A stretch of 64,000 nucleotides of DNA from a virus, in IMG/VR virus record IMGVR_UViG_3300032236_001191, positions 36,558 to 100,557 of that record. One strand, written 5' to 3'. A program made the position numbers and the translations under genes. This document shows positions 54,564 to 63,805 of this stretch, one piece after another. The first letter of the stretch is position 1. Each line of letters opens with the position of its first letter. The notes beneath the pieces were generated by a model. That model was not told the DNA's origin. It ran no database searches and worked only from the letters and a program-made list of their open reading frames with translations.

Positions 54564-56477
54564 TTATCTGCCACGCTTTTTAATTGCTCCGACTACTACC
54601 TTACGAGCAAACGGTAGAAGATCACCTGCGGATCTAACACGGCCATAGATTTCAGCACCGTGACGCAAGTCATCTTCAGTTTGTCCATGACGTTCGATCC
54701 ACTCTAGATCTCGGTCTTCAGCGATAAGGGTTAGCACAGTGAGGATGCCACGCTTGTTAATGCGTTCGATTAGCTCATCGTTCTTCTCCTTATTGAATAC
54801 GCCATCAGTGATAACGAATAGCATCTTATTCTTCTTACGAGATGCCATGAGTAACTGCTCAGCAACCAGCAGGGCTGGATACGGCTCAGTGCCACCATTA
54901 CCATAGATAAACTTGTAGTCCGTCTTACCGGCTTTCTCTGTACGTTTGTAGGCCACTTCAGGCTTATCATCAAACGCATAGACTGTAACCGGTGCATCAA
55001 TGTGCTCTAGCGCACGTTTGATAGTCCAGCATGCAATAGATGCTTTTCTATCATTCTGTCCACTAGACATTGAGCCTGAACGATCGATAAGGATAACTGC
55101 TTCGATATCGCAGCCATCATCACCTTCGTCCCAGCGATCGAAAGCGTTGTCAATCTCACATCCACGAATAACTCGTTGAACATTGAGACGACCACTAGGT
55201 GTTTCCTTACTCCATGTAGGCTCTGCATCATCACGCAGACGTTGCAGTTCTTTGGCGAACCTACGGTACGAGACAATGGCTTCCTGCGGTACAGCAGTGC
55301 TGTCGAACTTGCCTCGCTTGATAGTATCTTCATGCTTACCATCGCCACCAACAATAACTTTCTGCTTGGCTTTGATGTCAGCTTGAACATCCTTACGATT
55401 AAGAACATTCTCAATCGTATCGTCCAATAGCTTAGGTATACCACCTACGCTATCCACATGGCCTACACCTGCAGTAGGCGATGCTTGTGAGTTAACTGCC
55501 TCATCACGCATTTCTATTGCATCTTGTACGCTTTGCGGTACAAATACAACAGGCTGACCTTCTCCATCACCAGGCTTACTACTCTCTGCCGTACTTTCTT
55601 CGGCTTGGTCTGATGGATCGGATGTGCTTGATGTTTGTGTTGGTTGAGGCTTAGGTCTAGGAACATATACTGGCTCCTTGACTCCCATGCTTTTAGCACG
55701 ATTAGCATCTTTCTCCTGCGCTTTGCCTGGTTCAGGTCGACCCTTAGATACTGGTTCACGTCCTCCACAGGAACTAGGACCACCATCAAAGGTACTATCT
55801 ATACCCATAGGCTTTAGCACTTCAGTGTTCAATCGTCTAACAAGTTCTATTGCTCGTCCATAGTCCTTAGGAAAATGAAGAGTACGATACTCATCAACGA
55901 TTTCTATGATTGCAGGGATAAGATCAGGGAATGCGAACGCATCTCTGAATGCTTGTCGTACTTCAACCGGTAGATATCTACGGCCACGGATACATAGATA
56001 GTTGCCTGGCATAGACTCTCTGTCTTCACCAAGCCACCTAGCTACTGTGGCTGTTAGGAATGGAGCAACTGAGGGAAACCGTGCTACGAACAGGGTTTCG
56101 ATACGTTGATCCTCGAGTATGTTAAACGACTGCATCAGATCTTCTTCAAGAACTTTCTTGACTAGGTCTGTGCCTTTGCGAGGCGTATACAGGTGATGAC
56201 ATAGCTCGTGATAGTTGAGGCCAGTGACTTGGGTTAGAGTTTCTAAGTCCATGTCATTGATCTCTTCTGCATTGATAGTAATAGACGCACCGTCAGACCA
56301 TGCTGGCGCTGGACCATTACTTGCTACGTGTACTAGTACTGGATCACCAGTTAGTACACGGTCTGCTTGCTCGTATACTCGGCACAAGGCGTTAAGACGA
56401 ATCGAACGCTCTTGCGCCTCTTCAGCCCTAGCTTCTTGATGCCAACCGTATACATCATCCATCTCATCTTGAAACAT
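54564..56477 (-). CDS. VWA-domain protein with HExxH motif, CobT-like
   Basis: 637 residues. The N-terminal domain has HELCHH (His90, Glu91, His94) and LEDQRIETLF (about 121-130), a metallopeptidase-like core. A disordered Pro/Ser/Glu linker (about 240-310) leads to a VWA domain with MIDAS Asp465-x-Ser467-x-Ser469, Thr530 and Asp558 (DRSGSMS, GNGGTE, ITDG). Similar architecture occurs in CobT-like and MoxR-associated proteins. It is encoded directly after the MoxR-type ATPase and probably acts with it in remodelling a protein complex. Confidence 0.85.
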   Translation of the reverse strand: MFQDEMDDVYGWHQEARAEEAQERSIRLNALCRVYEQADRVLTGDPVLVHVASNGPAPAWSDGASITINAEEINDMDLETLTQVTGLNYHELCHHLYTPRKGTDLVKKVLEEDLMQSFNILEDQRIETLFVARFPSVAPFLTATVARWLGEDRESMPGNYLCIRGRRYLPVEVRQAFRDAFAFPDLIPAIIEIVDEYRTLHFPKDYGRAIELVRRLNTEVLKPMGIDSTFDGGPSSCGGREPVSKGRPEPGKAQEKDANRAKSMGVKEPVYVPRPKPQPTQTSSTSDPSDQAEESTAESSKPGDGEGQPVVFVPQSVQDAIEMRDEAVNSQASPTAGVGHVDSVGGIPKLLDDTIENVLNRKDVQADIKAKQKVIVGGDGKHEDTIKRGKFDSTAVPQEAIVSYRRFAKELQRLRDDAEPTWSKETPSGRLNVQRVIRGCEIDNAFDRWDEGDDGCDIEAVILIDRSGSMSSGQNDRKASIACWTIKRALEHIDAPVTVYAFDDKPEVAYKRTEKAGKTDYKFIYGNGGTEPYPALLVAEQLLMASRKKNKMLFVITDGVFNKEKNDELIERINKRGILTVLTLIAEDRDLEWIERHGQTEDDLRHGAEIYGRVRSAGDLLPFARKVVVGAIKKRGR

Positions 56478-56486
56478 GAGTCTCCT

Positions 56487-57914
56487 TTACACTATGCCGT
56501 GTGTTTGAGCAAATTGGCCTGCCCAAGCTGTAAACTCTTCATCTACAGATTTAACTTCTGGTTCCTTCTCTGTTTCCACAGGGATTTCGATACCGAAGTC
56601 AGTCTTGATGTTGTGTTCATATGTTTGGAATATGAGACGTACGCTGGCAGCTTCATCTGACCCAAAGTGAGCAATGAAGTTCTCAACTGCGAACTCATAT
56701 CCCAATGCATCTACGAAGTGTGTGAACTCCTGTAGCATATTGGTAGAGATTGGTGTTTCATACTGACCCTTGGCTGCCTCATTACGAAGCATCTGGGCTA
56801 GTGCTAACAACGACTTAGAGTTAACTAGCTTAGCCTCAACCTTATCGTCATAATCCCAAGGGATCTGAATGTCGAAACGGTTACGGAACGCAAAGTTAAG
56901 CGGCGTTGTACCAATGTAGTCTGGATTCATAGTCGCAAAGATTGTGAGGTCTTTGTGTGCTTCGATAGTTTCACCGTGGTGGTCAAGCAATGTGATCATA
57001 CGGCGACCATCTAGCAATGAATACAGAACAGTGTAGATTTTCGGACTGATGAAGTTAACCTCGTCGAGAAGGAGAACACCACCATTACGAACTACGTCAG
57101 TAACTGGGCCATCGATCCACGCAAATGAACCTGAGCCATCAGCTACGAACTTACCAGTCATTTGGCTTGGCTCCATTGAAGCGTTACCTGAGACTGTTGC
57201 CATGCGTAGTCCTCGTTCAGCAGCCCACGCTTCAACAGACGTAGTCTTACCGGGACCGGTTGGGCCGTAGATAAGTACGTTGATGTTGTTGGCACGAGCG
57301 TGATCGAAGATACTGAAGTCTTCTTGACCCCAGATGCTACGATGGATATATCGCTTAGCTAGCTCAATGCGTGGCACTGATGCTAGGTTCGCTGCAATTA
57401 CCGGACCAGCTCCAACGGATGCTGTTACAGGTTCGGCGATTGTTTGTGTTGGCTGTACCACTTGTACTGGTGAAGCCAATGGAACAGTCGTGCCAGCTGC
57501 ACGACGATTGTCAATTACATATTGCTCCAAGTTATCATCTCCATTGCTTACTTGTTCGTAGAGTTCACAGACAGCATCAACAAATGATGTTGTGTCTGTG
57601 TTTGGACTTGCTTTGGTATGCGCTTGACATGCCTTGGTACCAAGAACTGGAGAATAACCTTTCTCCGTCATAGCCCGTTCATCGGCTGCTGTAACATAGA
57701 TAGCAACAGGTGTACGAGTGAGTTCTTCGTTTGTTCCAATCAACCCAGTAAGCCCATCAAGATCCGTTTCTTCCCACTTGTTATGTGGGCCTTTGGATCC
57801 ATCGGTATTACGTGAGTAGATACGTACGTTACCATCATGCGGTGTGATAAGAACCTGACGGCGCTTAGCCCCCATGGTTGGTTCGTACGATTCTGTGAAC
57901 ACGGCGATATCCAT
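56487..57914 (-). CDS. MoxR/CobS-type AAA+ ATPase
   Basis: 475 residues. Walker A GPTGPGKTT (217-225), Walker B LLLDEVNF (281-288), then DLTIFATMNPDYIGT and FRNRFDIQIPW (sensor and Arg finger region), as in MoxR and CobS. The N-terminal 150 residues form a separate domain. It is followed after 9 bases by its VWA partner. MoxR-VWA pairs act as metal-insertion or protein-remodelling chaperones. Confidence 0.9.
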   Translation of the reverse strand: MDIAVFTESYEPTMGAKRRQVLITPHDGNVRIYSRNTDGSKGPHNKWEETDLDGLTGLIGTNEELTRTPVAIYVTAADERAMTEKGYSPVLGTKACQAHTKASPNTDTTSFVDAVCELYEQVSNGDDNLEQYVIDNRRAAGTTVPLASPVQVVQPTQTIAEPVTASVGAGPVIAANLASVPRIELAKRYIHRSIWGQEDFSIFDHARANNINVLIYGPTGPGKTTSVEAWAAERGLRMATVSGNASMEPSQMTGKFVADGSGSFAWIDGPVTDVVRNGGVLLLDEVNFISPKIYTVLYSLLDGRRMITLLDHHGETIEAHKDLTIFATMNPDYIGTTPLNFAFRNRFDIQIPWDYDDKVEAKLVNSKSLLALAQMLRNEAAKGQYETPISTNMLQEFTHFVDALGYEFAVENFIAHFGSDEAASVRLIFQTYEHNIKTDFGIEIPVETEKEPEVKSVDEEFTAWAGQFAQTHGIV

Positions 57915-59743: not shown

Positions 59744-60036
59744 TAGTTAGCCTCCACACTTTCAAACAATCCCGCATAGCAGATATCAAAACTCTGCTCA
59801 CGAGCTTGTTCCAGTTCACGTGGTTTATCGAACTCTTCATCAAACCATACGATTGATATAGGGTTACGTCTAGCACGCTTAGGGGATATAGCAAACAAGG
59901 CTTGACCAAGACCATCGATAACTCCGGTATGGTAAGCCCTGCTGTGTTGATCAGTGAGCTCGTTAAGGTTGAGTTCCTCTTCGAGCATCATTGTTTCTAT
60001 CTTGTCAGCCAATTGACGGCGCTTTCGCTTTCGCAT
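59743..60036 (-). CDS. Unknown basic/acidic protein
   Basis: 97 residues from the ATG at 60036, with AAGGAAG upstream; overlaps the WhiB gene upstream. MRKRKRRQLADKIETMMLEEEL, then GLGQALFAISPKRARRNPISIVWFDEE. No motif recognised. Confidence 0.45.
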   Translation of the reverse strand: MRKRKRRQLADKIETMMLEEELNLNELTDQHSRAYHTGVIDGLGQALFAISPKRARRNPISIVWFDEEFDKPRELEQAREQSFDICYAGLFESVEAN

Positions 60037-60397
60037 GCCGTACTTCCTTTCTTGTTGAACCAACGGGTTGTACCACGCTGATTGGGCTGGTTGTAAGGTC
60101 AGACTCTACAATATACGTACGATGACCTCGCATCTTAGGTGTTGTACCACCTTGGATACTATGTGCATCATCACGTAGGATTGCGTCATCTAGACATTGT
60201 TGCTTTACATTGCAATTAGCACAGACCTTGAGAGCTGCTCGCTCTTTAGCTCTGCGATGCGTTCTATTACTATCCTCTGCGGTGTAATAGAAATCATTTA
60301 CGTCTAGACCATTGCAGTTTGCTTGGTCTTGCCACGCACCTAATGCTGCCATATCCCATACCACTGGTAGTGGGACATAGTCGCTTGGCATATCCAT
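60005..60397 (-). CDS. WhiB-like regulator 3
   Basis: 130 residues from ATG 60397, preceded by GGAGGT. Cys28, Cys59, Cys62 and Cys68 (C-x30-CxxC-x5-C), followed by SIQGGTT, where the usual Trp of G[VI]WGG is replaced by Gln. A basic C-terminal tail follows. It is the only WhiB on the minus strand and so may act early. Confidence 0.88.
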   Translation of the reverse strand: MDMPSDYVPLPVVWDMAALGAWQDQANCNGLDVNDFYYTAEDSNRTHRRAKERAALKVCANCNVKQQCLDDAILRDDAHSIQGGTTPKMRGHRTYIVESDLTTSPISVVQPVGSTRKEVRHAKAKAPSIG

Positions 60398-61859: not shown

Positions 61860-61882
61860 TGTGTTCTCCTATTCTGTGTAGG

Positions 61883-62030
61883 GCTGTCATAGACAGCAAT
61901 AGACACATAGATGCGGACCGACATTGCCAATGGCGTCCCCTCCTTAGCCGTTAGGCGCAAGGGGTTCACCGAGGACATTCTCTGAGGCTATGTTTATGGC
62001 TACCTATGCCCAGTGCATCTATGTGTCTAT
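61883..62030. ncRNA. Candidate structured RNA 2, 16-bp closing stem
   Basis: ATAGACACATAGATGC (61899-61914) is perfectly complementary to GCATCTATGTGTCTAT (62015-62030). It encloses 100 bases with several further hairpins (GGAC/GTCC, CCCC/GGGG with GCC/GGC inside, GAG/CTC, GGCT.../...AGCC). A further GCTGTC-ATA-GACAGC hairpin lies just left. There is no ORF in the stretch and it lies between two minus-strand genes. Strand unknown. Confidence 0.6.
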
Positions 62031-62126
62031 CATTGTGTATGAATAAGCAGTTTAGCCTTGTCATGCTTAGGACAGGAGTTCTTTTACCTCAGGAAGAACT
62101 ATAGAAACCAACCAGCATTACCTGTA

Positions 62127-62558
62127 TTAACGGATATACTGAGCCCAACCAGATGTTGTGTTGATCTTGAACTCAGTGTCAATAGAACCTTCAACCAAGG
62201 CAATAGCATTACGAACTTGTTCGTAATCACTATTTTCACGCCCTACCTTATGAGAAGGTTGGCAAAGACCCTCAGGACGCTTACCAACTGCAGCCTCAAA
62301 GTCTTCCGTCTTAAAGTAGAAAGCAATACGAACGCCCTTGTTGTATCCAGTAGATACATCAAAGTCATTAGACTTAAGCATATTCTTCTTAGCCCAAGCT
62401 GATGCTTTCTTTTCCCACGCTTCTCGTCGTGCATCTAGAGTTGCGCTGTCCTTTTCCCAAGCAGCAACCTCATCGTCCATACGCTTGAGGGTTGCTTTCA
62501 ACTTGGCGAGAAGGTCTTTCTTGGCCCAGGTGGTTGCGATTACCTTTGTACTAGCCAT
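62127..62558 (-). CDS. Unknown protein with coiled coil
   Basis: 143 residues from the ATG at 62558, preceded by GGGAG; an ATG at 62621 is less likely. It has a coiled coil (LAKLKATLKRMDDEVAAWEKD...) and a C-terminal IAFYFKTEDFEAAVGKRPEGL. The pattern of short helical segments is not a known family. Confidence 0.5.
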   Translation of the reverse strand: MASTKVIATTWAKKDLLAKLKATLKRMDDEVAAWEKDSATLDARREAWEKKASAWAKKNMLKSNDFDVSTGYNKGVRIAFYFKTEDFEAAVGKRPEGLCQPSHKVGRENSDYEQVRNAIALVEGSIDTEFKINTTSGWAQYIR

Positions 62559-62919
62559 TTGTTTCTCCCGTCTGTTATTACATCCTATACTCCGGCTGAG
62601 TTTAGGAATTCTAGTGTGCATAAAGAAACAGAGGACACACGCATACTACTAATCGGATAGAAGGTAGAGTTTTATCCATAGCCCATTTGCGTAACGAAAA
62701 AACCAAAATTAAATAGATGTTGCAACAACTATCTAATCCTTCGTACCTACTGTGAGAGGAATATATGCGCTCCCTGAGTCCCTCAACCCCACAGTCCGTA
62801 ACTATTTCAATTTTCATCCCCCTCTGCATAGACCTATATCCTCACCTATACATACTCAGACTCAATTAACTATGATTAGCCTGTATGCGTGTGCCTTCTG
62901 CTTCTTTATGCTTTGCCTA
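62559..62919. other. Gene-poor region, about 360 bases
   Basis: I see no convincing gene. A 72-codon minus-strand frame (62611-62829) exists but has no ribosome site at a suitable distance and low-quality composition. The stretch is AT-rich (GAAAAAACC, AATTTTGG) with no strong hairpin. It could hold a promoter for the 62127 gene. Confidence 0.5.
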
Positions 62920-63012
62920 TTACTTACGGCGTAACCAAGCAACTATGATCATAGTTAGTGCAAAACTAACTGTCATTAGTTGGAAGGTACCTTCTGAGAA
63001 CTCAATGTACAT
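62920..63012 (-). CDS. 30-residue single-TM protein
   Basis: MYIEFSEGTFQLMTVSFALT then MIIVAWLRRK. A short acidic head, a helix of about 18 hydrophobic residues and a basic end. Ribosome site GGAGGT six bases upstream. Overlaps the next gene by 11 bases. Operator site 3 lies within it. Confidence 0.5.
   Translation of the reverse strand: MYIEFSEGTFQLMTVSFALTMIIVAWLRRK
62942..62955. promoter_or_regulatory. Palindrome ACTATG-AT-CATAGT (operator site 3)
   Basis: Perfect inverted repeat, third copy of the ACTATG-NN-CATAGT family. It is inside the coding sequence of a 30-residue protein, so it may act as an operator placed in a gene, or be a coincidence of codons. Confidence 0.5.
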
Positions 63013-63202: not shown

Positions 63203-63330
63203 CAAAAAAATAGTGGTACAACCTAATTAAAGGTCGTACCACCACGAGTGTGAGCCTTTTTACTGCCGACTTGCTCAGGTCGTCCACTCTACTATCATCT
63301 CGCACGACGATAGTTCCCCTCAGAGTGCAT
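63203..63330 (-). ncRNA. Candidate structured RNA 3 with terminator
   Basis: On the minus strand CACTCT/AGAGTG and ACTATC/GATAGT form an interrupted 12-bp stem (63285-63327), then a CGAC/GTCG hairpin (63267-63282), then the terminator at 63213-63243. A longer ORF here (63153-63338) would have to read through the terminator, so I treat the stretch as RNA. Confidence 0.5.
63213..63243 (-). terminator. Rho-independent terminator (minus)
   Basis: GTGGTAC-G-ACCT...AGGT-T-GTACCAC, about 11 bp with one mismatch, followed on the minus strand by TATTTTTTT. A very good intrinsic terminator. Confidence 0.88.
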
Positions 63331-63374: not shown

Positions 63375-63581
63375 TTATCTACCAGATGATTTACCACCAT
63401 CAGTAAGAAATGGATCATCTTTAGTTACATAGGCAAAGCCCTGCTTAGGGACAAGAACAAAGCGATAGTTATCTTGGCTCAGTCTTAGTTCCTTAGCGAT
63501 ACAGTCTTTAGCCATACAATACTCAAAGCCTGCTTCCCAACGGTCGGGATGAACAGGAGTATTACAATGGGGGCAAATCAT
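63375..63581 (-). CDS. Zinc-finger small protein
   Basis: 68 residues. MICPHCNTPVHPDRW then FEYCMAKDCIAKEL: CxxC plus CxxxxC, with several His. The C-terminus is FVLVPKQGFAYVTKDDPFL. Overlaps the gene upstream by four bases (ATGA). Similar proteins are frequent in actinophages. Confidence 0.6.
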   Translation of the reverse strand: MICPHCNTPVHPDRWEAGFEYCMAKDCIAKELRLSQDNYRFVLVPKQGFAYVTKDDPFLTDGGKSSGR

Positions 63582-63733
63582 AGACCAGCCTCTGTTGCTT
63601 CCTTGAGTACTTCTTCACCAAGAGGTGTAATGCTAACCATAGCTTCTAGGTTCTCGTTGTACTCAACCTTGATTAAGCCTTTACTAAGCAAACTAGCAAG
63701 AGAGTCGTCAAACTCTGCTTCAGTCATAGCCAT
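63578..63733 (-). CDS. Winged-helix small protein
   Basis: 51 residues from the ATG at 63733; AAAGG lies eight bases upstream, while the ATG at 63739 would be too close. AEFDDSLASLLSKGLIKVEY and LEAMVSITPLGEEVLKEA make a typical wHTH of about 45 residues. A small DNA-binding regulator. Confidence 0.55.
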   Translation of the reverse strand: MAMTEAEFDDSLASLLSKGLIKVEYNENLEAMVSITPLGEEVLKEATEAGL

Positions 63734-63768
63734 TGTCATTACCTTTCTGTTAACTCTCAGAATAGAGA

Positions 63769-63805
63769 GTAGTAGGGACACGGGCACGCACCATGCCCCT
63801 ACTAC
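63769..63805. promoter_or_regulatory. Hairpin leader upstream of the wHTH gene
   Basis: GTAGTAGGG pairs with CCCTACTAC over 9 bp, with an inner GCA/TGC. It lies in the 5' untranslated region of the 63578 gene. No U-tract, so it may regulate translation or stability. Confidence 0.45.

Follow-up and report, generated by a model that had tools for sequence, protein, structure and literature searches.

The intergenic gap at about 62 kb of the analysed window, which is a 64,000-nucleotide stretch of an uncultured virus record, holds an RNA element, E1, that judged by sequence comparison is a real RNA module and one of three long-stemmed RNAs (E1, E2 and E3) in this window (Table 1). The explanation that we lean towards, at somewhat short of an even chance, is that E1 may be an intergenic RNA cassette that the host RNase III would cut from a polycistronic mRNA. 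A preliminary description of this DNA had suspected a functional structured element here, and the suspicion is supported by compensatory changes in the family of its closing helix, by a preference for G-U over A-C oppositions and by the neighbouring E2, with covariation among relatives being seen both for the closing-helix family and for E2.

Table 1. Coordinates of E1, its parts and its neighbours in the window.
Feature	Position	Strand	Details or basis
E1, long-stem RNA cassette with 28-nt arms and ~100-nt interior	61887..62042	minus	ranks second among the stems of the record
5′ strand of the E1 framework helix	62015..62042 (perfect pairing 62015-62030)	minus	gap-free alignment with the relatives' helix
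3′ strand of the E1 framework helix	61887..61914 (perfect pairing 61899-61914)	minus	22/24 bases shared with the L055 3′ arm
E1 interior, predicted multibranched	61915..62014	minus	predicted fold; z -0.24 against shuffles
Alternative 3′ hairpin of E1, GCTGTC-TAT-GACAGC	61883..61897	minus	probability 0.71; exclusive with the outer stem
H-type pseudoknot PK3 of the leader, TGTC/GACA and AAGCA/TGCTT	62045..62074	minus	double changes in 7/9 pairs
First, PK1-like leader pseudoknot, AGTTCTT/AAGAACT with weak GG/CC stem	62077..62114	minus	kept in relatives
Gene A, 135 aa	61452..61859	minus	no relatives found
Ribosome-binding site AGGAG of gene A	61866..61870	minus	sequence
Gene B, 143 aa	62127..62558	minus	upstream of the leader in many relatives
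E2, second long-stem RNA, ~294 nt, with long-range pseudoknot	62618..62911	minus	best stem of the record; covariation in 11 relatives
E3, third framework stem, 7-nt loop	63758..63816	minus	upstream of gene 63578-63739
Alternative 3′ hairpin of E3, ACTCTC-TATTCT-GAGAGT	63753..63770	minus	sequence

First, the stem stands clearly above chance. The preliminary description had claimed a perfect closing stem of 16 bp within a gene-free interval of 260 bases; the gap measures 267 bases (61860-62126), and the arm at 61899-61914 (ATAGACACATAGATGC) is indeed fully complementary to that at 62015-62030 (GCATCTATGTGTCTAT), with pairing that reaches 61887-61914 and 62015-62042 at few mismatches (28 nt, 86%). 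When the whole 100,557-base virus record was searched for interrupted stems at a spacing of 50-450, the top two of this ~100-kb sequence were E2 (score 56.5) and E1 (score 45.0), and the top score per Markov-shuffled genome was at most 42.5 (n=100 genomes), below both. The whole ~156-nt E1 also folds more stably than shuffles, owing to the stem, on both the minus strand (z = -4.8) and the plus strand (z = -4.2). The 100-nt interior alone has no excess stability against dinucleotide shuffles (z = -0.24 on the minus strand and +0.2 on the plus strand), and searches for its relatives came back empty, both in 34 related records and, with exact 19-mers, in IMG/VR. Therefore, the four or five local stems of a multibranched RNA in the preliminary description are present in the predicted fold and remain predicted features, the interior being no stabler than shuffles and offering no homologs for covariation.

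Every gene accepted by our home-made gene caller between ~53 and 64 kb is encoded on the minus strand. Therefore, the E1 RNA would start at 62042, end at 61887 and separate gene B from gene A, and a predicted transcript would comprise, in this order, E3, small genes, E2, gene B, the pseudoknot leader, E1 and gene A. A promoter scan gave fewer sites than in shuffles and none on the minus strand between gene B and gene A, and minus-strand terminator-like sites were absent within the stretch from E2 through gene B to E1. A strong terminator-like hairpin with a T run is located at 63210-63245 (minus), and a tiny predicted membrane peptide ending in RRK is encoded upstream of E2 at 62920-63012 (minus), with a similar ending apparent on visual inspection in some relatives, L006 for example (related loci are numbered with L). 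Neither tblastn nor phmmer found relatives of gene A, and an apparent likeness between its product and proteins in L029, L030 and L034, spotted on visual reading, was unsupported.

The closing helix of E1 recurs in related phages, where it forms a frame around differing contents. When the CTAT in the 3′ arm is used as anchor, 13 stems, including those of E1 and E3, align without gaps across 22 positions. Both partners change at 9 of these positions, 8 of the 13 stems have an A-C mismatch at one position, and G-U pairs recur elsewhere; because the 13 were selected by the presence of stem and anchor, the alignment shows membership and is not an independent proof of the family. Across 34 stems scored symmetrically on the gene-sense strand, G-U pairs outnumber A-C mismatches by 99 to 39 (an earlier 110 to 36 came from a stem score favouring G-U), which is indicative in that many of the sequences are related and were mostly detected on the gene-sense strand with a G-U-tolerant score; E1 by itself, with two G-U and one A-C, is neutral. 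The helical frame stays while the interiors vary, and the members keep one orientation relative to the genes. These comparisons support the assignment of E1 to a framework-stem family of related phages. At other related loci, smaller long stems with interiors of 30-102 nt lie upstream of other genes. At L009:2808-2955, L010:2885-3014, L038:813-938 and L096-L105, small long-stem RNAs were observed upstream of other genes, and in these the frame hardly varies and the interiors differ.

Next to E1 in the same putative transcript, E2 shows strong covariation. Nearly all relatives have in the corresponding region an RNA of 230-310 nt closed by 25-30 bp, and RNAalifold predicted 76 pairs for 11 E2 members, 44 of them with compensatory changes. 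When a long-range pseudoknot joining a hairpin loop to a strand further downstream is added by hand, 94.3% of the cells pair and double-sided changes occur in 47 of 80 pairs among the 11 relatives; shuffles never reach either value, and slid structures pair in 36-45% of the cells.

The leader that precedes E1 is conserved in related phages. A blast search with the E1 gap matched 30-70 bases just upstream of the stem, not the stem itself. In related phages this leader is built from two or three H-type pseudoknots in tandem, and a ribosome-binding site and a gene usually come straight after it. Pairing is complete (180 of 180 cells) in a set of 20 pseudoknot sequences, and 7 of the 9 pairs change on both sides, the count being partly circular because part of the set was picked by a descriptor requiring pairing; that descriptor matched 80 sites, of which some belong to overlapping loci, and 10 sites once the sequence was block-shuffled. 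The leader pattern had 16 matches in bacterial genomes, about the chance expectation, and none with the pseudoknot. A scan with the AAA-ATPase gene gathered 34 related viral loci, and the leader pattern, used without a pairing requirement, gave 24 loci in IMG/VR. As counted by reading, with some loci closely related to each other, the leader is followed by a gene in 16 of these 24, by tRNA-Arg in four and by a long-stem RNA in four, and in the window by E1. Two related loci, L040 and L055, have nearly identical flanks: in L040 the leader leads to the ribosome-binding site within about 20 bases and without a cassette, and in L055 a 257-nt long-stem RNA lies between the two, at the same site as E1, with a 3′ arm identical to that of E1 at 22 of 24 bases.

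This pair bears on two explanations in which E1 would not be a functional RNA. Presence or absence at one site, terminal inverted repeats and a variable interior would also suit a mobile DNA element of the MITE type; however, the arms covary, G-U is preferred over A-C on the gene-sense strand, the members hold one orientation relative to the genes, and no obvious target-site duplication was seen by eye between L055 and L040, so that we regard such an element as very improbable. A chance or decaying repeat without function, to which an interior lacking relatives and excess stability would correspond, is more improbable still and is largely refuted by the family alignment, in which the stem matches the family helix column by column; the stem also exceeds those of 100 shuffled genomes and has 22 of 24 3′-arm bases in common with the RNA that L055 carries there.

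The leader pseudoknots appear repeatedly on either side of untranslated RNAs and tRNAs. By analogy, they could be antitermination signals, as the put sites of phage HK022 are, in which case E1 would be a by-product of a tract enabling RNA polymerase to read untranslated regions. We consider this improbable, since the pseudoknots directly precede ordinary genes in 16 of the 24 loci and nothing ties the helix of E1 itself to transcription.

In most framework members, the outer 3′ arm can alternatively pair with the bases next downstream to form a hairpin before the ribosome-binding site. This hairpin is enriched over shuffled downstream sequence with a combined p of about 1e-12, which is inflated because the family members are related, and the mirror control on the 5′ side gave p = 0.42. 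The hairpin of E1 by itself is not significant (p = 0.11); in the predicted ensemble, the hairpin at 61883-61897 has a probability of 0.71 against 0.29 for the outer stem, with the inner 17 bp nearly always formed. E3 has the same sequence arrangement, but its minimum-energy fold keeps the long stem, and E2 of the window is without an alternative 3′ hairpin.

In the main rival explanation, E1 would belong to the 5′ leader of gene A and act purely in cis: pseudoknots, helix and switching hairpin would together set the stability or translation of the downstream mRNA, with no release of RNA. Most framework stems directly precede a ribosome-binding site, which a cis role fits equally well; the outer stem and the 3′ hairpin are mutually exclusive with close probabilities, and the E1 interior looks unconstrained. 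Metabolite riboswitches with strand-exchange platforms are among the closest known systems: here too a closing stem has a competing partner for its 3′ strand just upstream of the ribosome-binding site, with tandem H-type pseudoknots further upstream, although the E1 helix is far longer than usual switch stems, its type of interior is not conserved and there is no Rfam match. Against a purely cis role, the E2-type interior is conserved, with covariation and a long-range pseudoknot beyond what a stabilising hairpin requires, the closest relatives keep the leader without any long-stem RNA, and tRNAs, which are released RNAs, fill the same site. We therefore judge a purely cis role to be a serious but rather doubtful possibility.

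For the excised cassette, which we prefer, the comparison with relatives directly gives a conserved framework helix, a possible 3′ hairpin and a site that relatives have either empty or filled by a tRNA or another long-stem RNA. Based on these findings, we propose that E1 would be carried in a minus-strand polycistronic transcript comprising gene B, the pseudoknot leader, E1 and gene A. The host RNase III would then cut the framework helix, as it does with pre-rRNA processing stems, and free the enclosed RNA; the residual 3′ strand might refold into the short hairpin and so give the gene A mRNA a new 5′ end that is capped and protected, and the freed RNA could act in trans, its specificity residing in the variable interior. 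The predicted inner stem of 17 bp, with pair probabilities of 0.87-1.0, would provide the long double-stranded stem that characterises RNase III-processed RNAs. No RNase III or double-stranded RNA-binding domain encoded by the phage was found in 15 phage records, and the host enzyme must therefore be assumed. RNase III processing stems flank pre-rRNA and occur in the early mRNA of phage T7, and like them the E1 helix is a long imperfect helix between genes of one transcript that encloses or separates RNAs; unlike them, the phage frame encloses unrelated interiors and its 3′ strand has an alternative hairpin partner.

Searches of the databases matched none of these RNAs to catalogued ones. The preliminary description had recognised no known Rfam family, and the covariance models of Rfam 15 gave no gathering-level match in the window; at E <= 5, the interval 61860-62950 yielded only sub-gathering, chance-like matches (E 0.07-2.3), and the relatives' leader, E2 and the small stem had no match. 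The sole gathering-level match across four related loci was a tRNA in L030. The E1 gap and the relatives' leader-plus-E2 regions had no blastn match among 50,697 phage records, and no other description of such RNAs was found in titles and abstracts of the open-access literature. Among the known identities considered, ARAGORN found no tRNA or tmRNA in the window, a retron ncRNA was rejected as the record has no reverse transcriptase (RVT_1) match, and a Y RNA was rejected as the record has no TROVE-domain protein for a Ro60 partner, with the reservation that parts of the record may be missing and that the host could supply such a protein.

The nearest known kind is that of the ornate RNAs ROOL and GOLLD of phages and prophages, though these are much larger: ROOL env-120 has 659 nt and many GOLLD RNAs exceed 800 nt (PMC12286853), whereas E1 (156 nt) and E2 (294 nt) lie below the ~600 nt or more expected of this kind and match no Rfam model. 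Both kinds are structured non-coding phage RNAs, with pseudoknots in the case of E2. ROOL and GOLLD sit near tRNA islands (PMC12286853); the window holds no tRNA, and tRNA-Arg genes fill the E1-equivalent site in four relatives. Unlike ROOL and GOLLD, the RNAs here have a closing helix of 25-30 bp as a frame common to RNAs with different interiors.

Taken further, the comparisons could point to a new system in uncultured phages of probably actinobacterial hosts, in which each genome would carry several small RNAs that have one processing helix as frame and exchangeable interiors as cargo, excised from operons at pseudoknot-preceded sites that also hold tRNAs, thus forming a swappable set of trans-acting RNAs; we put this forward as conceivable and more doubtful than not. 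If true, it would extend the small set of structured RNAs known to be encoded by phages with further classes, from phages represented in this analysis only by uncultured-virus contigs. Candidates for new Rfam families are E2, whose relatives show covariation, and the pseudoknot leader. Both function and exchange are directly testable, given a common helix with varied interiors, three copies in the window and a near-identical phage pair with and without the cassette.

As for the host, the record encodes a WhiB-like regulator at 60005-60397 (minus; Pfam PF02467), which points to an actinobacterium, and its AAA-ATPase gene matches a Gordonia phage; an actinobacterial host is therefore likely from these gene matches. 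Genes for a VWA-domain protein and an AAA-ATPase adjoin at 54564-57914 (minus).
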